A stretch of DNA of 37,563 bases, taken from positions 1 to 37,563 of the IMG/VR virus record IMGVR_UViG_3300011013_000040; one strand, 5' to 3'. The notes beneath the pieces were generated by a model. It was not told where the DNA came from. It worked only from the letters and a program-made list of their open reading frames with translations, and did not search any database. This document shows, piece by piece, positions 2,926 through 34,707 of the stretch. The DNA is from a virus. The first letter of the stretch is position 1, and the number at the start of each line of letters is the position of its first letter. The translations under genes were made by a program, and so were the position numbers.

Positions 2926-4287
2926 TTGCAAATTACAATGACCCCGGTTTCGGAGCTGGCACCTTACGCCGGCAATGCGCGCACACATTCGGAGCAGCAG
3001 GTTGCGCAAATCGCGGCGTCGATCACGGAGTTCGGGTTCGTCAATCCGATCTTGGCCGGGCCCGACAACGGGATCATCGCGGGGCATGGCCGCCTTTTGG
3101 CCGCCCAGCTGCTGGGGATCGACAATGTGCCGGTCATCGTGCTGGACCATTTGGGCGAGGCGCAGCGCCGGGCGCTGGTTATTGCTGACAACAAGATTGC
3201 GGAAAATGCCGGCTGGGACGACGAGTTGTTGCGCCAAGAGTTGGCAGCTCTGCAGGATGCGGATTTCGATCTGAGCCTGACCGGGTTTGATGCGCGCGGG
3301 CTGGACGAGGTTTTCGCTGGGTTCGACGGTGCCGACGAGGAATTGCCGGACCTGCCTGGAGATCCGGATTTCGTGCCGGATCCGCCGGCGCGGCCGGTGT
3401 CGGAGCTCGGGATGATATGGGAGCTCGGTCGCCACCGCGTCATCTGCGGCGACGCCACCAAGCGGAAGACTGCGGCGCGGCTCGTGGACGGCCGGAAAAT
3501 GGCTGCCTGCTGGACGGATCCACCTTATAACGTCGATTACGAGGGCACCGCCGGAAAGATCAGAAACGACTCGATGGCGGATGCAGAATTCAGGAAATTC
3601 CTGGTCGGTGCATTCCGCGCAGCCGAGAGCGTGATGAAAGCTGGCGCGGCGATCTATGTCGCGCACGCGGACACCGAGGGGTTTAACTTTCGCGGTGCAT
3701 TCATTGACGCGGGGTTCAAATTGTCCGGGTGCCTGGTATGGGTGAAGCCGAGCTTGGTGCTCGGCCGGTCGGATTATCAATGGCGGCATGAGCCGATCTT
3801 GTACGGGTGGAAACCCGGCGCGCCGCACAGATGGTTCGGCGGGCGGGCAAAGACGACCGTGATGGACGATGCGGGAGAGCCGGTGCGGGTGATGCCGGAC
3901 GGCACGCTGCAGATCGATGTGGACGGGCAGACAATCGTCATCAGTGGCGAAAAGCTGGCGATCGAGAGCGCGACGGGATCGATCCTGCGATTTGCAAAGC
4001 CGGCTCGGAATGCCGAGCATCCGACCATGAAGCCGGTGGCGTTGATCGAGGAAATGCTGGGCAACAGCACGGTGCGCGGCGATGCGGTGTACGATCCTTT
4101 CGGCGGCTCGGGATCCACGCTGGTGGCGTGCGAAAAGACGCAGAGGATCTGCTATGCGATGGAGTTGGACGAGCGGTTTGTCGACGTGATTGTGACCCGA
4201 TGGCAGGCGCTGACGGGCCGTTCCGCAGTCCTGCAGGGCGACGGCCGGACATTCGAGGAGGTGGCCGCGCGCGCGGCTGCAGCGTGA
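2926..4287 (+). CDS. ParB-like domain fused to DNA methyltransferase (beta class, probably N6-adenine)
   Basis: This 453-residue protein has two domains. Residues about 5-95 form a ParB/sulfiredoxin-type domain with GIIAGHGRLLAA (GHGRL at 53-57). From about 165 on it is an S-adenosylmethionine-dependent DNA methyltransferase, with catalytic motif IV TDPPY (DPPY 198-201) before SAM-binding motif I DPFGGSGST (390-398). That order defines the beta class, which includes CcrM. DPPY favours adenine N6 methylation. No partner restriction gene is visible, so it is an orphan methylase, probably protecting phage DNA or marking it for regulation. TTG 2926 is chosen because GAGGG at 2914-2918 is well placed; ATG 2938 is the alternative and costs four residues. 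It is the first clear gene of the late block. Confidence 0.85.
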   Translation: MQITMTPVSELAPYAGNARTHSEQQVAQIAASITEFGFVNPILAGPDNGIIAGHGRLLAAQLLGIDNVPVIVLDHLGEAQRRALVIADNKIAENAGWDDELLRQELAALQDADFDLSLTGFDARGLDEVFAGFDGADEELPDLPGDPDFVPDPPARPVSELGMIWELGRHRVICGDATKRKTAARLVDGRKMAACWTDPPYNVDYEGTAGKIRNDSMADAEFRKFLVGAFRAAESVMKAGAAIYVAHADTEGFNFRGAFIDAGFKLSGCLVWVKPSLVLGRSDYQWRHEPILYGWKPGAPHRWFGGRAKTTVMDDAGEPVRVMPDGTLQIDVDGQTIVISGEKLAIESATGSILRFAKPARNAEHPTMKPVALIEEMLGNSTVRGDAVYDPFGGSGSTLVACEKTQRICYAMELDERFVDVIVTRWQALTGRSAVLQGDGRTFEEVAARAAAA

Positions 4288-4291
4288 CGCC

Positions 4292-4978
4292 ATGGCTGAA
4301 AAGAAGGCCCGGGCGCTGCGGTTCAATCCCAAGAGCACGCGAAAAGTGGTTCACCGGACGGCAACCGCGGCGCGCACGATCGGGCACCTTGAGCCCGGCG
4401 TCCATGTGACCGGGCTGACGGCTGGACAATTCTCGGCGATCGATGCGATGGAGTATCTGGTCGACGAGCTGGGCCCGGCCGAGGTTCGGGTGTCCACCTG
4501 GACGACCGGGCTTTACGACGTAAAACGAGCGGCGGCGATCAAGGTCGCGGGCCGTATCAGCGATATTCGGATGCTGCTGGATCGTGGCACATTCGAGAAA
4601 TCGCCTCAGTTTGCCGGCCCGCTTATCGAGGCTTTGGGTGCTGGATCGTTCCGGTGCCTGTCGGTGCATGCAAAGGTGATCGTGGTGACCGGGGCTCGTG
4701 GTGCGGCGGCGTTCAGGTCATCGATGAATTTGAACAAGAATCTGCGCACCGAGCAATTCGATCTCGACGTGGACGACGAGGTGGCCGGTTTCTATTCGGA
4801 GTGGTTCGACCGGTTGTGGGACGAGGCCGGGCGGTCGCAGGACAATCGGACGATAATTCGGAATGTGTATGACCGATTTCGGCAGGGTGTGACGGATCCT
4901 GAGCCAAAGGCCGCCCGCGGCGGGCGAGGGCTGCGCGACGTGACCTTTTCGGCCGCTGATCTGTCAGATCTATTGTGA
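4292..4978 (+). CDS. Phospholipase D-like domain protein
   Basis: This 228-residue protein has one PLD-type signature near residues 128-160: SVHAKVIVV supplies the H-x-K, followed by the downstream N (SSMNLNKN) and E/Q-F-D elements. The Asp of the canonical HxKxxxxD motif is not evident (HAKVIVVTG). The upstream half (STWTTGLYDVKRA, RISDIRMLLDRGTF) fits a single-motif PLD-nuclease-like fold that would act as a dimer. Family members in phages are usually found beside ParB-methylase genes, as here, four bases downstream. Nuclease activity on DNA and a packaging or defence role are inference; the missing Asp could mean weak or altered activity. Confidence 0.6.
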   Translation: MAEKKARALRFNPKSTRKVVHRTATAARTIGHLEPGVHVTGLTAGQFSAIDAMEYLVDELGPAEVRVSTWTTGLYDVKRAAAIKVAGRISDIRMLLDRGTFEKSPQFAGPLIEALGAGSFRCLSVHAKVIVVTGARGAAAFRSSMNLNKNLRTEQFDLDVDDEVAGFYSEWFDRLWDEAGRSQDNRTIIRNVYDRFRQGVTDPEPKAARGGRGLRDVTFSAADLSDLL

Positions 4979-4981
4979 CGG

Positions 4982-5176
4982 TCAAGCGTCGGAGGTGCCA
5001 ATCGGCGAGAGGTCGTGCGTGATGGCGGCGCAGGCCAGCGCGACCACGCGCGGGATGGGCTGCCGGCCGAGTGCATACGCGGTGCCGCTGTTGGTGGCGA
5101 TGCCGAGGCGGCGGCACAGGGCCGCGCGGGAAATGTGGAGCTCGCGAGACAGGGAGTCAAATTCTTCGGCGGTCAT
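4982..5176 (-). CDS. Small helix-turn-helix protein (Aca-like position)
   Basis: This 64-residue minus-strand protein starts at ATG 5176, with GAAAGG about eight bases upstream. It is a minimal HTH: LSRELHISRAALCRRLGIA is the HTH core, followed by YALGRQPIPRVVALACAAI, the ending shared by many small alphaproteobacterial XRE-like regulators. It is second in a two-gene minus-strand operon whose promoter carries a 14-base palindrome (5643-5656). The protein is therefore the obvious candidate to bind that operator and repress its own operon, as Aca proteins do in anti-CRISPR operons. The gene ends three bases from the stop of the convergent PLD-like gene. Confidence 0.65.
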   Translation of the reverse strand: MTAEEFDSLSRELHISRAALCRRLGIATNSGTAYALGRQPIPRVVALACAAITHDLSPIGTSDA

Positions 5177-5240
5177 GGTAGGGCCTTTCGGATTGCTGGC
5201 GTATTGGATGGGGGCCGGCGTCCAGCCCCGCACCAATGCG

Positions 5241-5603
5241 TCAGGCGGTTGCGATCATGTCTTGGCGGTTCAACCGGGCGGCCTCTTTTTTGGCCTGCGT
5301 TTCGGTTCTTTTGTAACACACGGTTACGCTGTCTGGTTCGCCGTCGTCATAGGCAACAGACAACTCCACCTCCCAAATATCGGGCCGCCGATCCGGGTAA
5401 GCGTCGTCACGGGTATATTCCGCAAGATCCCCGGTGCGCCGGTCCCTGAGAAGAAATATGCCGCGAACCCTGAATGGCCCCGCCGGAGTTATGCGCGGGG
5501 TGGTGCCATCGGTCAGATCCGCGATGGCCTCTGCCGCGTCCAGGTAGTCGTCGCCGGTCATTAAAAAATTGATCCGCTGGGTTTTAGTTTCGTCGCCGTA
5601 CAT
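5241..5603 (-). CDS. Small acidic protein of unknown function, candidate accessory (anti-defence) gene
   Basis: This 120-residue minus-strand protein matches no family I recognise. It is acidic in its first three quarters (GDDYLDAAEAIADLTDG, EYTRDDAYPDRRPDIWEVEL, VAYDDGEPDS) with a Lys/Arg-rich last 25 residues. It has no signal peptide or membrane segment and one Cys. The start ATG 5603 has AGGAG at 5612-5616 eight bases upstream, and a good sigma-70-like promoter lies at 5639-5667. It is the first gene of a two-gene operon antisense to the late operon, followed by an HTH gene. This is the layout of acr-aca pairs; the function is unproven, and other moron functions fit equally well. Confidence 0.6.
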   Translation of the reverse strand: MYGDETKTQRINFLMTGDDYLDAAEAIADLTDGTTPRITPAGPFRVRGIFLLRDRRTGDLAEYTRDDAYPDRRPDIWEVELSVAYDDGEPDSVTVCYKRTETQAKKEAARLNRQDMIATA

Positions 5604-5638
5604 GGTCTGGGCTCCTGGTGTGCGTTTCCTCGAGTACG

Positions 5639-5667
5639 ACTATCGCAAATCTGCGACGGCAATGCAA
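5639..5667 (-). promoter_or_regulatory. Promoter of the minus-strand accessory operon
   Basis: On the minus strand TTGCAT (5667-5662) and GATAGT (5644-5639, 4 of 6 to TATAAT) are separated by exactly 17 bases. The predicted start lies about 30 bases before ATG 5603, leaving room for the AGGAG at 5616-5612. The palindrome at 5643-5656 fills the promoter-proximal part of the spacer and touches the -10. Confidence 0.55.
5643..5656. promoter_or_regulatory. Palindromic operator of the accessory operon
   Basis: TCGCA (5643-5647) and TGCGA (5652-5656) are perfect inverted half-sites around AATC. The position inside the minus-strand promoter suggests that a dimeric repressor blocks RNA polymerase there. 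The HTH protein at 4982-5176 is the natural candidate. I saw no second copy of this palindrome elsewhere in the window. Confidence 0.5.
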
Positions 5668-5713
5668 GGGGAAACGGGCAAAACCCCATAAAAATAAGGT
5701 GATAGAGGTCGCA

Positions 5714-6286
5714 ATGGGTATATCTAGACGAGCATACGCGCGGCATCGAGGCTGCGCGGAGAGCGCTGTCAGGAAGGCCATTGCGTCGGGGCGGATCAGC
5801 GTGGAGCCGGACGGGACTATCGATGCGGAAAAGGCCGACGCGGAGTGGTCGACACAGACGGATCCGGCGCAGCAGCGCGGAAAACACGCGAAGGCGCAGG
5901 GCGCGCAGTCTCGGTCGGCAACGAGGGCGGTGCCGCAAGCGGCGCTGCGTGCCGTCGACGAGACGCTGCAGGACGAGCCCGGTGGGCCGGGCGGCGAGGT
6001 GTCGTTCTTGCGGGCCCGAATGGCGAACGAGGTTTTAAAGGCGCAGACGGCAAAGGTTCGCCTGCAGAAAATGAAGGGCGAGCTGGTCGATCGCGAGCAG
6101 GCCACAGCGATGGTGTTCGACCTCGCCCGCCGCGAGCGCGATGCGTGGCAGAATTGGCCGCCTCGTGTGGCGGCAGATATGGCGGCGGAGCTGAGCGTAG
6201 AGGCGCACGCCATGGAGCAGGCGCTCGATCGGTACCTTAGAGCGTTTTTGGATGGTCTCGCCGAGATCAAGATTGAATTGAGATAA
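5714..6286 (+). CDS. Terminase small subunit (Nu1-like)
   Basis: This 190-residue protein has an N-terminal HTH (ISRRAYARHRGCAESAVRKA then IASGRI) like lambda gpNu1. An alanine-rich linker and a C-terminal helical part (FLRARMANEVLKAQTAKVRL, then QKMKGELVDREQATAMVF) follow. Such subunits bind the packaging site and recruit the large subunit to cut concatemers. The start is ATG 5714 with GAGGT at 5705-5709; a longer GTG-initiated form from 5618 would overlap the minus-strand promoter and lacks a Shine-Dalgarno. It is the first gene of the packaging/head cluster and ends with an ATGG junction into the next gene. Confidence 0.8.
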   Translation: MGISRRAYARHRGCAESAVRKAIASGRISVEPDGTIDAEKADAEWSTQTDPAQQRGKHAKAQGAQSRSATRAVPQAALRAVDETLQDEPGGPGGEVSFLRARMANEVLKAQTAKVRLQKMKGELVDREQATAMVFDLARRERDAWQNWPPRVAADMAAELSVEAHAMEQALDRYLRAFLDGLAEIKIELR

Positions 6287-6513
6287 TGGCGACACAGAGT
6301 CGGACGATGTCGGCGATCGAGGCGGTTGCAAATGTTGTCATCGGGTATTCCGTCGCCGTCGTGGCGCAGATGATCGTGTTCCCATGGTTCGGGATCGTGA
6401 TTGATGCGCCGGCGCAATTGGCCATCGGCGGAGTGTTTACGGTCGTGTCCATCGTGCGGTCCTATTTGATTCGCCGAATGTTCGAGGTGCTGCGGCAGAA
6501 GGAGGGTGGATGA
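6286..6513 (+). CDS. Small membrane protein between terminase subunits (DUF7220-like)
   Basis: This 75-residue protein has two predicted membrane helices (VANVVIGYSVAVVAQMIVF and LAIGGVFTVVSIVRSYLI) and a basic C-terminal end (RRMFEVLRQKEGG). Its opening phrase S-x-I-E-A-V-x-N-V-V-I-G-Y is that of a phage family annotated as DUF7220, as far as I recognise it. It sits between terS and terL with one-base (6286) and four-base (6510-6513) overlaps, so it is co-translated with packaging genes. Function unknown. Confidence 0.6.
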   Translation: MATQSRTMSAIEAVANVVIGYSVAVVAQMIVFPWFGIVIDAPAQLAIGGVFTVVSIVRSYLIRRMFEVLRQKEGG

Positions 6514-8516
6514 TCGACCGGCCGCAGAAACCGGCGGACTTCGACGGCGCGGAGGAAATTAGACGGGCATGGCTGGCGGGGCTGGCACCGGACCCGGCGC
6601 TGACGGTCAGTCAGTGGTCGGATCGGCACCGGATACTGTCCTCGCGGGCGGCCTCGGAGGCCGGACCGTATCGGACCGCGCGCACGCCGTACATGCGCGA
6701 GATCATGGATGCGCTCAGCCCGAGCGATCCGGCGCGGCGCGTGGTGTTCATGAAGTCGGCTCAGGTTGGCGCGACCGAGGCCGGCAATAACTGGATCGGG
6801 TTTTGCGTCCACCGGGCGCCGGGCCCGTTCCTTGCGGTGCAGCCGACGGTCGATCTGGCCAAGCGGCTGAGCCAGCAGCGGATCGATCCGCTGATCGAGG
6901 AAAGCCCGGACCTGCGCGAGCTGGTCATGCCATCACGATCGAGGGACAGCGGCAATACGATTCTGGCCAAGCGTTTCCCGGGCGGGCAGCTGATCCTGAC
7001 CGGGGCCAACAGCGCGGTGGGCCTGCGCTCGATGCCGGCGCGTTGGGTGTTCATGGACGAGGTCGATGCCTATCCGGGCGACGTCGATGGCGAGGGCGAC
7101 CCGATCGCGCTGGCCGAGGCACGCACAAACAGCTTCGGGCATCGCTCCAAGATATTTCTGGCCTCGACGCCCACGATCACCGGGGCCAGCCGGATCGAGC
7201 GGGAGTATGAATTGAGCGACCAGCGGCGCTATCACGTTCCGTGCCCACACTGTGGCGGCCTGCAATGGTTGCAGTTCGAGCGCCTGCGCTGGGAGAATGG
7301 TAAGCCGGAGACGGCACATTATCTGTGCGAACACTGCGAGGAACCGATTGAAGAACGGCACAAGACACAGGTGATGGCCGAGGAATCCGGCGCCTGCTGG
7401 ATGCCGACTGCGGATGATGAAACCCGGGCCCGGGCGGAAGAGGCCGGCACCGTCGGCTATCACATCAACGGCCTCTATTCGCCGCTCGGGTGGTTGAGCT
7501 GGGCCGAGATCGCGCGCAGCTGGGAACAGGCGGTCGGGAACGAGGCCGCGCTGAAGACGCTGAAAAACACGGTTCTGGGCGAGACCTGGCAGGAGAAGGG
7601 CGAGGCCCCGGACTGGCAGCGGCTCTATGACCGCCGCGAGGACTGGCAGCTCGGGCATGTTCCGAAAGGCGGGCTGGTGCTGACCGCCGGCGCGGATGTG
7701 CAGCGCGACCGGCTCGAGATAGACGTCTGGGCATGGGGGCGCAATCTCGAAAGCTGGCTGGTGGAGCATATCGTGTTCGACGGTGATACCGGCGACACCA
7801 GTTCCGAGGTCTGGGCCAACCTGACGGAGCTGCTCGGCACGACGTGGCCGCATGCGGACGGGCAGCGAATGGCGCTGGCGAAGCTGGCGATCGATACCGG
7901 CGACGGTCGGACGACCAGCGTCGTCTACGACTGGGTTCGCTCGGCCGGACATGGGCAGGTGTTGGCGATCAAGGGTGTTGGCGGGTTCGACCGCTCCACG
8001 CCGGTCGACGGGCCGACATTCCCGGACAAGACGGAATCCGGACGCAAGGTGAAGAGCGGAATCCATCTCTGGAAGATCGCGGGCGCGGTGTTCAAGTCTG
8101 AACTTTACCGGCTGTTGCGGCTTAATCCGCCGGTTGGAGAGGACAACCTGTTCGAGAAGGTCGAATGGCCGGCGGGATATGTCCACATCGCGAAGGGCAC
8201 GCCGGCGGAATGGGTCAAGCAGCTGACCGCCGAGCAGCTGGTGGTAATCAAGACCCGGCAGGGGTTTCAGAAGCTGGAATGGCAGAAGCTGCGGGAGCGC
8301 AACGAGGCGCTGGACTGCCGGGTCTATGCCCGCGGGGCGGCATGGCTGATGGGGATTGATCGCTGGGACGACCGGCGCTGGGACGAGATGGAGGCGCAGC
8401 TGGCGCCGGAGCAGGCGGAAACGCTGCCGGCCGGGGTGCCGGGACGTCCGCGACAAGGAAAACTACCACGCCGGGGAACGGACTGGCTTGGATCGCGCAG
8501 AGGGAATTGGTTCTGA
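6510..8516 (+). CDS. Terminase large subunit, GpA family
   Basis: This 668-residue protein is the ATP-driven packaging motor and nuclease. The adenine-binding and Walker A region is at residues about 80-92 (FMKSAQVGATEAGNN), Walker B at 179-186 (WVFMDEVD), and the coupling motif SSTPT-like at LASTPTITG. A CxxC...CxxC zinc-like element (CPHCGG ... CEHCEE) follows. The nuclease half has the acidic residues LTAGADVQRDRLEIDVWAWG and LAIDTGDGRTTSVVYDW. Length and order match lambda gpA-like terminases, which usually cut at cos sites. It starts with an ATGA overlap on the small membrane gene. Confidence 0.92.
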   Translation: MIDRPQKPADFDGAEEIRRAWLAGLAPDPALTVSQWSDRHRILSSRAASEAGPYRTARTPYMREIMDALSPSDPARRVVFMKSAQVGATEAGNNWIGFCVHRAPGPFLAVQPTVDLAKRLSQQRIDPLIEESPDLRELVMPSRSRDSGNTILAKRFPGGQLILTGANSAVGLRSMPARWVFMDEVDAYPGDVDGEGDPIALAEARTNSFGHRSKIFLASTPTITGASRIEREYELSDQRRYHVPCPHCGGLQWLQFERLRWENGKPETAHYLCEHCEEPIEERHKTQVMAEESGACWMPTADDETRARAEEAGTVGYHINGLYSPLGWLSWAEIARSWEQAVGNEAALKTLKNTVLGETWQEKGEAPDWQRLYDRREDWQLGHVPKGGLVLTAGADVQRDRLEIDVWAWGRNLESWLVEHIVFDGDTGDTSSEVWANLTELLGTTWPHADGQRMALAKLAIDTGDGRTTSVVYDWVRSAGHGQVLAIKGVGGFDRSTPVDGPTFPDKTESGRKVKSGIHLWKIAGAVFKSELYRLLRLNPPVGEDNLFEKVEWPAGYVHIAKGTPAEWVKQLTAEQLVVIKTRQGFQKLEWQKLRERNEALDCRVYARGAAWLMGIDRWDDRRWDEMEAQLAPEQAETLPAGVPGRPRQGKLPRRGTDWLGSRRGNWF

Positions 8517-28757: not shown

Positions 28758-29834
28758 TCATGATCGTCCTTTTGCATGGTCGAGCGCCGCCGCCGTTGCC
28801 GCCTGAAAATCCGGGTGATGATGCAGGTAAACGCTTTCCAGCGTCTGGATGGATGTACCGAAGAAGCCGGCGGCGTCGGCTAGTGGCACGCCGGCCTGCA
28901 TCGCCCAGGTGATGGCCGTGTGCTTGAGCGTGTGCGGTGTGGCGCGGATGTCGGCTTTTTGGCATACCGTTCCCCACGCCGTCTTGATCGATGCCACCCG
29001 GCTGCCTCGGTATTCGACAACCCAGCCGCTATTGCGGCCCGCAGCCATCTTCCAGCGCCGTGCCGCTCTGAGCAGTTTCTGAGGCATCCGGGCCGGTGGC
29101 CTTCGCTTTGCGGTTTCTCGCATTTCCTCTGCTTTTCGGTAGAGCACACCGTGCTCGACATCGATGTACCCACCGCCCGGGTGCGGCTCGAATCGCAGGC
29201 TCAGAATTGCTTCCTTGCGGGAGCCGGTATAGACGGCGACCAGAATAAACCGCGCGATGTGCCTCGTGCGCGGGTTGGACCGTGCCGCGCGAATGAGCGC
29301 GGCCACTTTGCTTCGGGTGAGCCAGCGATCTGTCGGGGCCTTCTTGGCCGGAAGGACGACATTCGGAGCGCGAGTGAGATATCCTTCGGTCGCGCAATAG
29401 TTCACCGCCGCCTGCAGACACCCGAGCTCGCGGCGTGTTGTACCTCGCCCGGCCGGCCTCTCGCGATCCGTGCCGGCGCATACCACCCGCTCGCGGGCAT
29501 ATCGCCGGCAGGCCGCGGCGGTGACGGCACCGACAGGCGTGTCTCCCCACCACGTCACCAGCGCGGAGATTGCGTGACCGATGCGCGCGGGATCAGCGAC
29601 ATGCGGCGCGTGCTGTTCGCCATAAATGGCGAGGGCTTCCGCAACACTCATCCGGTCTGGCTCAGCGGGACCACCTGGGCGCTCGCGCTCGACGAGATAG
29701 GCCGCGAGCATCGCTTCAGCCTGTCGGCGATCCGTTGTGCCTGTCCGACGCTGGGTCTTGCCGTCGATGATGATGTATTTGCCCCCGTCGCTGGGACGTG
29801 GGTAGAGTCTAGCACCCTTGCTGGGACGCGGCAT
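28758..29834 (-). CDS. int: Tyrosine-recombinase integrase
   Basis: This 358-residue protein has an N-terminal arm-binding-like part (KYIIIDGKTQRRTGTTDRRQ), a core-binding domain and a catalytic domain. Catalytic Arg I is in VAVYTGSRKEAILSLRF. The second box is PHTLKHTAITWAMQAGV, where Lys takes the usual Arg place of H-x-x-R, as in a known subfamily. The Tyr is in ESVYLHHHPDF. It catalyses recombination between attP and the host tRNA-Pro gene. It is the last gene of the minus-strand left operon. Its first 187 bases overlap the excisionase gene in another frame. Confidence 0.92.
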   Translation of the reverse strand: MPRPSKGARLYPRPSDGGKYIIIDGKTQRRTGTTDRRQAEAMLAAYLVERERPGGPAEPDRMSVAEALAIYGEQHAPHVADPARIGHAISALVTWWGDTPVGAVTAAACRRYARERVVCAGTDRERPAGRGTTRRELGCLQAAVNYCATEGYLTRAPNVVLPAKKAPTDRWLTRSKVAALIRAARSNPRTRHIARFILVAVYTGSRKEAILSLRFEPHPGGGYIDVEHGVLYRKAEEMRETAKRRPPARMPQKLLRAARRWKMAAGRNSGWVVEYRGSRVASIKTAWGTVCQKADIRATPHTLKHTAITWAMQAGVPLADAAGFFGTSIQTLESVYLHHHPDFQAATAAALDHAKGRS

Positions 29835-30306: not shown

Positions 30307-30753
30307 TCATGCTGTGTTCTCTGGAAGATTCAATGAAGCCTGCCCGACAGATTCTTCCAGTCGGCGCCGTATACCGGCGCGGCGCATCGGCGCGTCGTAG
30401 GTATTGTGGCAACGCTGGCAGATCGCTACGAGGTTCTCGCGGGCGCAGTTCTCTGGTTGGTGATCGAGATGGGCGACGGTCAGGACCACCCGAACAGGCC
30501 TCGCCCAATCGCAGGTGTCCTCGCTGCTGTCTGGCACCGCCTGGCAGGTTACGGCATCGAAACCATCTTCGTATGCCGATTGGTTGGCGTAGCGATAAAG
30601 CGCGCGGCCATCAGCTGACCTCCCGCGTCTGATAATGCCGCCGTTCCAGACGCCGCACCATTCGCAGCGGTTCCCCGCCTCGGCACGAACGCGGGCGGAT
30701 ATTTCTGGCCAATCGGCGGGATACCGTTTCCGGTTTTCGGGGCGGATCGGCAT
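30307..30753 (-). CDS. HNH endonuclease
   Basis: This 148-residue protein has an HNH nuclease domain. CEWCG supplies the first metal-binding Cys pair, TVAHLDHQPENCARENLVAI holds the H-x-x-H-x...N-L core, and CQRCHNTYD supplies the second Cys pair and final His. It probably nicks or cuts DNA; in this early operon it could act in recombination, homing or exclusion. No terminase-linked position is seen. ATG 30753 overlaps the preceding stop as TGATG. Confidence 0.85.
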   Translation of the reverse strand: MPIRPENRKRYPADWPEISARVRAEAGNRCEWCGVWNGGIIRRGRSADGRALYRYANQSAYEDGFDAVTCQAVPDSSEDTCDWARPVRVVLTVAHLDHQPENCARENLVAICQRCHNTYDAPMRRAGIRRRLEESVGQASLNLPENTA

Positions 30754-31328: not shown

Positions 31329-31411
31329 GTCGGTGTCTCCATTCCATTGCAGGCTTGATGATGTCCGGCCCATTGCACAGCTGCGGGTCTATGGCAGGTC
31401 TTGTCGATCAT
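31325..31411 (-). CDS. Micro-protein, 28 residues
   Basis: ATG 31411 overlaps the PAPS-reductase-like stop (ATGA). The frame runs 28 codons (MIDKTCHRPAAVQWAGHHQA and eight more) to a TGA that overlaps the next start. It has two Cys and four His residues. It could be a leader that keeps translation coupled across the cassette. Confidence 0.3.
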   Translation of the reverse strand: MIDKTCHRPAAVQWAGHHQACNGMETPT

Positions 31412-32244
31412 TGGGTGCATTCCCCACCATTAGCTTGACAAAATCCGTCCTCAATCGAGAACAGCAGTTCACCTTGACGCTCGACGGTATCGCGCAACTG
31501 TGCCCTGGTGAATTGGTCTCTGAACCGGGCACCGTTCGCGCTGGTGGTGAGGCCCGAGGCTTTTGCCTCCATGCGTTCCCACCATGAGTGGCGGTCAGGA
31601 TGATCGCGGCATAGGGCGGCAAGCTGTGCCTCAGACTTCAGGAAACAGCCGTCGCAGTTTCCGTATCCCGGCTCGACGCGCAAATCGAACGGCTGTGCAT
31701 TCCAGAATCGTAGAATTGCCGCTTTGTCGATGTCCTCAAGTGGATACCAACGTTTGACTCGTTTGTCTTTCGATGGGGTTTTGCGATGGGATTCATCGGC
31801 TCGAATGCCGACAGCGTTGGTCCACTCCGTCCAACCCAAAGACATAAGGTAGCGCCTAGTGGGGAGAATTTTTAGGTGTTCGGTGCAGAACCTTTTGCTC
31901 TGATCTGGGCAGGCTTTTTTGCGCTCAATTAGCCGTTCAAATGGTTCCCCATCGAAGCTGGCCGAGTTGTGGCTAACTACGTCAAATAAGGCATCGCCGC
32001 CGCGTTTGGCATCCTCGACCCAAACGACCTGCACCGCCCATCTGTCAGAGCACTCTTGCACGAAATCCAGGGTTTCAGGCATTTCGCGCCCGGTGTTGGC
32101 AAACACCACCCGGACCCGTTCCGGCAAATCACCATTTGCGGCAAGTATCTGATGCAGCATATATGCGCTGGTGCGTCCACCGCTGAAGCTGATCAGCACT
32201 TTGTCGGGTGGCAAGATATATTTGCTTTCCGCGCGTATAAGCAT
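31408..32244 (-). CDS. PAPS-reductase-like PP-loop protein
   Basis: This 278-residue protein belongs to the PAPS reductase/ATP pyrophosphatase superfamily. The PP-loop is VLISFSGGRTSAYMLHQILA (S-G-G-R-T-S at 21-26), followed by RVVFANTGREMPETLDFVQE and the central RFCTEHLKILPTRRYLMSLG. A C-terminal Cys pair is in GYGNCDGCFLKSEAQLAALC. Such proteins activate a substrate by adenylation and often handle sulfur. Stand-alone phage versions have unknown targets; roles in DNA or tRNA thio-modification or counter-defence are conceivable. The start ATG 32244 overlaps the preceding stop as TGATG inside a 78-bp repeat. The gene sits between two such repeats, as if inserted as a cassette. Confidence 0.75.
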   Translation of the reverse strand: MLIRAESKYILPPDKVLISFSGGRTSAYMLHQILAANGDLPERVRVVFANTGREMPETLDFVQECSDRWAVQVVWVEDAKRGGDALFDVVSHNSASFDGEPFERLIERKKACPDQSKRFCTEHLKILPTRRYLMSLGWTEWTNAVGIRADESHRKTPSKDKRVKRWYPLEDIDKAAILRFWNAQPFDLRVEPGYGNCDGCFLKSEAQLAALCRDHPDRHSWWERMEAKASGLTTSANGARFRDQFTRAQLRDTVERQGELLFSIEDGFCQANGGECTQ

Positions 32245-32319
32245 CAGCTGTCGTCCCTCATGGCACCGAGGACATTCCCGGCGGCGCGGATCCAGTTTGC
32301 TGCGAGCTCGTCGAGGTTT
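32242..32319. repeat. 78-bp direct repeat, copy 2
   Basis: This is the identical partner of 31240-31317. Here it is the true 3' end of the 95-residue gene plus the start codon of the PAPS-reductase-like gene. Recombination between copies would delete 1002 bases and leave the 95-residue gene intact, fused by the same TGATG junction to the frame at 31242. Confidence 0.95.
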
Positions 32320-32531
32320 TCGGCCGCAGCAAACACTCCGAACACCTGTATCGTTTTCAATGCCGGATCGTAGACGCCTGGCACGTCCGACGGCAGGTCC
32401 CACCGGCCGCCGTGATCGATCACCGCCTGTTTCAGGATCGGCAGACGCAAGTCCTCGGTCGCAGCCTTTGTTTTGGTAAACAGGGCGGCCAGGCATGCAC
32501 ACTCCGGGCCGGATGTTTGCAGATCATCCAT
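32244..32531 (-). CDS. Hypothetical early protein, 95 residues
   Basis: Starts at ATG 32531 with GGAGGT upstream. The N-terminus CACLAALFTKTKAATEDLRL is helical, the centre YDPALKTIQVFGVFAAAE beta-like, and the end is the helical segment duplicated downstream (NLDELAANWIRAAGNVLGAM). It overlaps the XRE regulator gene by eight bases and its stop overlaps the next start. Family not recognised; small DNA- or protein-binding role possible. Confidence 0.5.
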   Translation of the reverse strand: MDDLQTSGPECACLAALFTKTKAATEDLRLPILKQAVIDHGGRWDLPSDVPGVYDPALKTIQVFGVFAAAENLDELAANWIRAAGNVLGAMRDDS

Positions 32532-34077: not shown

Positions 34078-34707
34078 TCACATTCGAACAGCCAATTCCC
34101 GGGGCCAATGCAGCAGCACGGGGGCGGCCCATTTCAGGCGCACGTCATGCTGGTTGTCGGCTGACGGGTTGAGGGAAATCAGGTTGAAGAGGCCAGGCTG
34201 CGATCCACGCCGCACCTGTTTGATCCAGCCCAGCCCATCAATCGTTTCGCAGACGCTGCGACGGCCGATTGCTTCGACCGGGACGCCATCGTTGGACATG
34301 CGGGTGTAGAACAGCAGGTCGCCGGATGAATAGACCGGCTCCATGCTGTCGCCCTCGATTTCGACCGCAACCACGCCGGCGCTGGGCAGGCTGGGCGGGC
34401 AGGCCACGCGCGGACCGGCACCGTTCTCGTAGACTTCGAATACCGGGACATGCGCCCCGGCGCCGACTTTGCCGACGATGGGGACGGTTGGATTTGCGGA
34501 CAGAATTCCGACCAGAAACTGCTCGAGCGAGACGCCGAATGTCGCTGCTACTTTTACCGCATCATCGACGTTGGTGGTTTGGCTCTTTCCCTGCCGCAGG
34601 CTCTTGAACTGCTCGTAGGAAACGCCGGCCGCTTCCGCGACCTGCTTCATGGAACGTCCAGAAGACTTGAGTGCGTTTTCGAGTGCGTCTCTGAATAACT
34701 GTGGCAT
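34078..34707 (-). CDS. Phage repressor, LexA/C2-type (HTH plus S24 peptidase)
   Basis: This 209-residue protein has an N-terminal HTH (residues about 8-60: GRSMKQVAEAAGVSYEQFKS) and a C-terminal S24 domain. The catalytic Ser is at 121 in EIEGDSMEPVYSSGDLLFYT and the Lys near 163 in GLGWIKQVRRG; a possible autocleavage Ala-Gly lies at 83-84 (VGKVGAGAHV). It would maintain lysogeny by binding the GGGG-N7-CCCC operators and be inactivated through RecA. An operator begins two bases from its start codon, so autoregulation is likely. No clear Shine-Dalgarno is visible, so translation may be leaderless. Confidence 0.88.
   Translation of the reverse strand: MPQLFRDALENALKSSGRSMKQVAEAAGVSYEQFKSLRQGKSQTTNVDDAVKVAATFGVSLEQFLVGILSANPTVPIVGKVGAGAHVPVFEVYENGAGPRVACPPSLPSAGVVAVEIEGDSMEPVYSSGDLLFYTRMSNDGVPVEAIGRRSVCETIDGLGWIKQVRRGSQPGLFNLISLNPSADNQHDVRLKWAAPVLLHWPRELAVRM

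Follow-up and report, generated by a model that had tools for sequence, protein, structure and literature searches.

The gap at 4978-5714 of a virus record in IMG/VR (IMGVR_UViG_3300011013_000040), between a PLD-like endonuclease gene and the terminase genes, holds a pair of minus-strand ORFs that encode a 120-aa acidic protein and a helix-turn-helix (HTH) protein. The pair had been predicted from its layout to be an operon of the acr-aca kind, which raises the question of what such an operon does beside the late genes, and whether its first gene acts against CRISPR-Cas. We analysed the entire record of 37,563 bp, referred to here as the window. Very probably the pair is an autorepressed accessory operon of a temperate alphaproteobacterial phage, inserted on the strand opposite to the nuclease and terminase genes that flank it. 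The relevant features are:

2926-4287, plus strand: ParB-methylase fusion gene.
4292-4978, plus strand: PLD-like endonuclease gene (phrog_16945), the left neighbour, convergent with the HTH gene.
4982-5176, minus strand: 64-aa XRE-type HTH protein, gene 2 of the operon and predicted autorepressor (homologue alignment, AlphaFold model, fold matches).
5241-5603, minus strand: 120-aa acidic protein, gene 1 of the operon (ORF and translation, codon log-odds).
5612-5616, minus strand: ribosome-binding site AGGAG of the 120-aa gene (sequence).
5639-5667, minus strand: predicted promoter (-35 TTGCAT at 5667-5662, 17-bp spacer, -10 GATAGT at 5644-5639).
5643-5656: predicted operator TCGCAAATCTGCGA (family consensus TCGCAAATTTGCGA, conserved in promoters of the HTH family).
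5714-6286, plus strand: terminase small subunit gene (phrog_57), the right neighbour, divergent; homologues start at 5714.
6286-6513, plus strand: DUF7220 gene.
6510-8516, plus strand: gpA-type large terminase gene.
28758-29834: integrase gene.
34078-34707: CI-like repressor gene.

Coordinates and strands agree with the expected placement between the PLD-like gene and the terminase, antisense to the late genes, while the order of a short acidic gene followed by an HTH gene is borne out by the ORFs, a pI of 4.6 and phage-like codon use. The stop codons of the PLD-like and HTH genes are 3 nt apart, and the PLD-gene flank is conserved in relatives. Codon log-odds for the 120-aa gene are +0.217 per codon with all other frames negative, and its ribosome-binding site is good (AGGAG, 8 nt ahead of the ATG). 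The HTH gene scores +0.23 per codon, with one plus frame also positive (+0.17). Plus-strand genes in 4982-5610 were considered as an alternative and rejected, their coding signal being no better. Since all homologues of the HTH protein (47-64% identity) align from the Met at 5176, the start is placed at that ATG, giving 64 aa, and a TTG at 5236 was discarded. Because the CI-like repressor and the integrase are located elsewhere, the operon is not the immunity repressor; their presence makes lysogeny plausible and the phage probably temperate. A phosphoadenosine phosphosulfate reductase-like moron gene (phrog_424) was also observed on the minus strand of the window at 31408-32502, near an HNH endonuclease gene (30307-30753) and the integrase gene.

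The inverted repeat at 5643-5656 covers the spacer and -10 of the minus-strand promoter, as predicted. It had been described as a perfect 14-base palindrome; in the window it is symmetric at 12 of 14 positions with perfect 5-bp arms, and the perfect form occurs in relatives. As regards the promoter itself, the exact 17-base spacing between TTGCAT and GATAGT held, but its strength did not, as only 7 of 12 bases match the sigma-70 consensus, and a program promoter scan did not list 5639-5667. The promoter is nevertheless supported, because CTTGC and the operator keep the same relative place in relatives. The window contains one match to TCGCAAATTTGCGA at up to two mismatches against 0.23 expected, which taken alone is weak, and the site is single in the phage genome at that threshold.

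The PLD and small-terminase proteins, used as queries, yielded 130 loci, four of which (L002, L004, L014 and L017) carry a minus-strand HTH gene of the same family in the slot between the two flanking genes. A profile search with the HTH protein added L132, L133, L134 and L137, with L132 and L134 less alike than the other HTH loci, and a genome scan added L159 from an alphaproteobacterial MAG. When genomes were scanned for the HTH family by taxonomic group, one of 385 genomes of the class and one of 96 of the family gave a hit, each time the MAG already in the set. With up to one mismatch, the operator is present in the first-gene promoter of 9 of 11 HTH operons, the window included, a count in which L149 was found through its operator and is therefore not independent. 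In those operons a conserved CTTGC precedes it by 5-7 bp. The operator of L138 and L139 is degenerate (3 mismatches). None of 660 simulated sequences carried the operator at up to one mismatch in the 1.4 kb upstream of the HTH gene. Among loci obtained without use of the operator, which are not independent of one another, it was found at up to one mismatch in 8 of 14 with the HTH gene and 0 of 128 without it (Fisher, 9e-10). After loci sharing any 60-mer were merged, the counts were 3 of 4 clusters and 0 of 65 (p = 7.6e-5).

In an unbiased search, TCGCAAATTTGCGA was found in the promoters of six other HTH-bearing contigs. When 2.9 million viral contigs were scanned blind for the pattern TTGC-N5-7-TCGCARATYTGCGA alone, 11 matches came up, comprising six known HTH loci, L149, L155 and three without context. 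L149 was new; its HTH gene belongs to the same family and lies 1.1 kb downstream, behind different cargo. The operator match in L155 is cut by the contig end and lies beside a distantly related terminase (37%). The remaining three (L151, L152 and L154) stand outside any such operon and were attributed to chance. A second upstream repeat with the same 5-bp arms (TCGCA/TGCGA) is found in L133, L135 and L149, and a near copy, one mismatch off, in L136. Some Aca promoters likewise carry a second inverted repeat, IR2 (PMC9410906). Several TCGCA/TGCGA repeats, possibly diverged operators of the same type, were also seen upstream of a distant HTH relative (L143:2409-2500).

The HTH gene is always late or last in its operon, behind differing small genes. 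In L002/L135, L004/L136, L014/L139, L017/L138, L133, L137 and L159, members of the family hold the corresponding position, and the genes upstream of them vary. The commonest cargo of these operons is phrog_8020 (L002, L014, L017, L132 and L159); others are a 72-74-aa family in L002 and L134, an 87-90-aa family in L004 and L133, a further 72-73-aa family, and singletons; four operons carry a 32-40-aa membrane-like peptide ahead of the HTH gene. The cargo of the window is a single orphan gene. In six relatives (L005, L006, L007, L012, L020 and L022) the slot is empty, with the PLD and terminase genes 11-23 bp apart, while in others it spans 0.7 to 3.2 kb. In relatives without the HTH gene, the slot can hold small-gene operons of other types, likewise antisense, and many of these include a DNA-binding-like gene that we presume to be DUF3489 (for example L073:1699-1926, L076:3835-4062 and L144:1465-2061). 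Because these other operon types occupy the slot and share some cargo families with the HTH operons, the slot is a site of exchange that is filled in at least two ways, one of them being the HTH-operator pair.

Two further observations concern the relatives. In L132 (6306-6695) and L134 (6255-6698), a distant PLD-like protein (~33%) comes directly after the HTH gene and is encoded on the same strand as the operon, in place of the convergent PLD gene of the other relatives. A phrog_8020 relative (L146:4001-4357) lies close to the type IV gene csf2 on a plasmid of Pseudomonas aeruginosa.

The AlphaFold model of the HTH protein (pLDDT 86; helices at 3-12, 17-24, 28-35 and 43-53) is an XRE-type helix-turn-helix according to Foldseek/VIA matches, and the nearest solved structures include NE0471, Aca10, HigA2, Aca2 and Aca1. 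The model superposes on Aca10 with a Z of 9.5 (rmsd 1.1 over 54 residues), on Aca2 with a Z of 9.2 and on Aca1 bound to a 14-bp palindrome with a Z of 7.8; Aca7 is also among its fold neighbours. The same fold is, however, common to HigA, SinR, MqsA and many XRE regulators. At the level of sequence, the HTH protein had no NCBIfam match, and its profile retrieved no PDB Aca at E 10, a comparison that covered those Aca families having PDB structures. Comparison with the Aca2 profile by hhalign gave 70% (E 4e-5), but the unrelated CI repressor of phage ZF40, run as a control, scored the same (72%, E 3.5e-5), and membership of Aca2 was therefore dropped. Two further ZF40 control proteins had no hhalign match to the HTH profile.

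The 120-aa protein (pI 4.59) is an orphan. It matched nothing in PHROGs, Pfam, NCBIfam or PADLOC, and no relative was detected in viral contigs, phages or plasmids, nor in the six frames of the fetched loci, for which the window's own record was left out. The homologues beside other HTH genes that the original prediction proposed to look for were thus not found in these searches. Matches to dihydrofolate reductase (E 6 in phages, 0.035 in the PDB) were judged to be chance, and the single-sequence fold model is poor (pLDDT 47). The role assigned to this protein comes from its position alone.

Could the pair be a true acr-aca operon, in which the 120-aa protein and the cargo of the relatives inhibit CRISPR-Cas and the HTH protein founds a new Aca family? 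All the regulatory hallmarks described for Aca promoters (PMC9410906) are present, namely a terminal HTH gene, an inverted repeat in the core promoter and, sometimes, a second inverted repeat. The HTH protein is small, lies at or near the end of a variable operon of small genes, and has a conserved inverted repeat in the operon's core promoter that is degenerate only in L138 and L139, and its fold neighbours include Aca10, Aca2, Aca1 and Aca7. The acrIF8-aca2 operon of ZF40 is also antisense to late genes, with a promoter (CTTGCTTGTTCGCGATTGCGAACATATAAT) that resembles CTTGC-N5-TCGCAAATTTGCGA, and the proximity of a phrog_8020 relative to csf2 points the same way. Assignment to the Aca class, however, depends on whether the cargo is an Acr; AcaFinder takes a neighbouring Acr homologue as its criterion (PMC9765179). 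Among PDB sequences, neither the 120-aa protein nor phrog_8020 had an Acr match, and the cargo scanned matched nothing in Pfam, NCBIfam, PADLOC or the PHROGs of known function. Nor is the HTH protein linked by sequence to the PDB Acas at E 10, its hhalign score for Aca2 being no better than that of the ZF40 control. A weak point on the same side is that cas1 is absent from the sole host genome found with the HTH family, a possibly incomplete MAG. The regulatory half of the acr-aca-like prediction was thus upheld by the terminal HTH gene behind interchangeable small genes, the core-promoter repeat, the single operator of the genome, the fold and the absence of the insertion from several relatives, while its anti-CRISPR half found no Acr match. 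An anti-CRISPR cargo is therefore a rather doubtful reading, although it and an autorepressed accessory operon are not mutually exclusive.

That the pair might instead be a HigBA-type toxin-antitoxin module, with the 120-aa protein as toxin and the HTH protein as autorepressing antitoxin, is suggested by the antitoxins HigA2 and GraA among the fold neighbours, and by the order of toxin then HTH gene with an operator over the promoter. An antitoxin must fit its toxin, yet the same HTH family lies beside unrelated cargo in other phages, with several genes each, rather than staying with a matching toxin gene, and the cargo matches no toxin family, which leaves this explanation very improbable. 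Equally improbable is a late or packaging regulator, in which the HTH protein would control terminase expression and the 120-aa protein would be a packaging or structural factor, because, even though the operator lies 57 bp ahead of the terminase start between divergent genes and the clearly placed members of the HTH family all adjoin methylase, PLD or terminase genes, the operon is missing altogether from several relatives and is therefore dispensable for packaging, the cargo is unconserved, and the genome has only one operator.

The best reading of the locus is that of a swappable accessory cassette, probably for counter-defence, under an HTH protein whose predicted role as an Aca-like autorepressor is well supported. 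How it would work, from HTH binding and repression to timing and cargo function, we infer as follows. Upon phage entry, transcription from the unrepressed promoter at 5667-5639 would run first through the 120-aa gene and next through the HTH gene, whose product would dimerise and bind 5643-5656 in the spacer and -10. The bound dimer would shut its own promoter, resulting in an early burst of cargo protein followed by low expression. The original prediction likewise had the operon expressed early and in the lysogen, where late read-through would not yet oppose it. The switch would be a local one, since the genome has only one such site and the integrase and CI-like repressor genes lie elsewhere, and relatives keep it while exchanging the cargo. 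Most likely the cargo gives the phage an advantage over host defences or rival phages, through counter-defence or another moron function, with anti-CRISPR activity as one possibility. We propose only tentatively, and at somewhat less than even chances, that the HTH proteins form a previously undescribed Aca-type repressor family, with its own operator TCGCAAATTTGCGA, marking a pre-terminase hot spot of interchangeable counter-defence genes to which the 120-aa orphan would belong.

The HTH-operator switch can be recognised from DNA alone, as a scan without proteins led to L149. If the cargo is counter-defence, the switch offers a way to search alphaproteobacterial phages for such genes; if the family is indeed a new one of the Aca type, its operator could lead to further anti-CRISPR proteins or to proteins against other defences. 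With so small a cargo set, every protein can be tested directly. Within the library covered, a full-text literature search returned no paper joining anti-CRISPR, Rhodobacteraceae, prophage and Aca.

Three known or neighbouring systems invite comparison. Closest in position are the DUF3489-type operons (L073-L094, AcaML1), which share the slot, the strand, small-protein cargo and some cargo families; their DNA-binding-like gene, in contrast, belongs to another family, and they lack the TCGCAAATTTGCGA operator. Aca10, from the acrIC7-acrIC6-aca10 operon of Pseudomonas citronellolis (PMC9410881), is a single-domain HTH protein of ~65 aa encoded by the last gene, with an operator that overlaps the promoter, and superposes on our HTH model at 1.1 Å over 54 residues. 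The two proteins share only 9% identity, and the Aca10 operator (AATACGCTCA-T-TGAGCGTATT) is unrelated to the present one. In the acrIF8-aca2 operon of Pectobacterium phage ZF40, as in the window, a small gene is followed by an HTH gene antisense to the late genes. The Aca2 probe printed in PMC9410881 (TTCGCAATTGCGAA) is absent from the ZF40 sequence, where the promoter reads TTCGCGATTGCGAA, and the ZF40 sequence was used for the comparison instead. The 64-aa protein lacks the C-terminal dimerisation domain of Aca2, its half-sites are 6 bp apart rather than 4, and no Acr has been identified in its operon. The HTH domain fold is nevertheless alike (Z 9.2), and in both promoters CTTGC is followed by TCGC/GCGA inverted-repeat half-sites in the core promoter and then by the -10, a likeness that is suggestive and no more. 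Operons under Aca-like regulation are a kind already known, to which the present operon adds.
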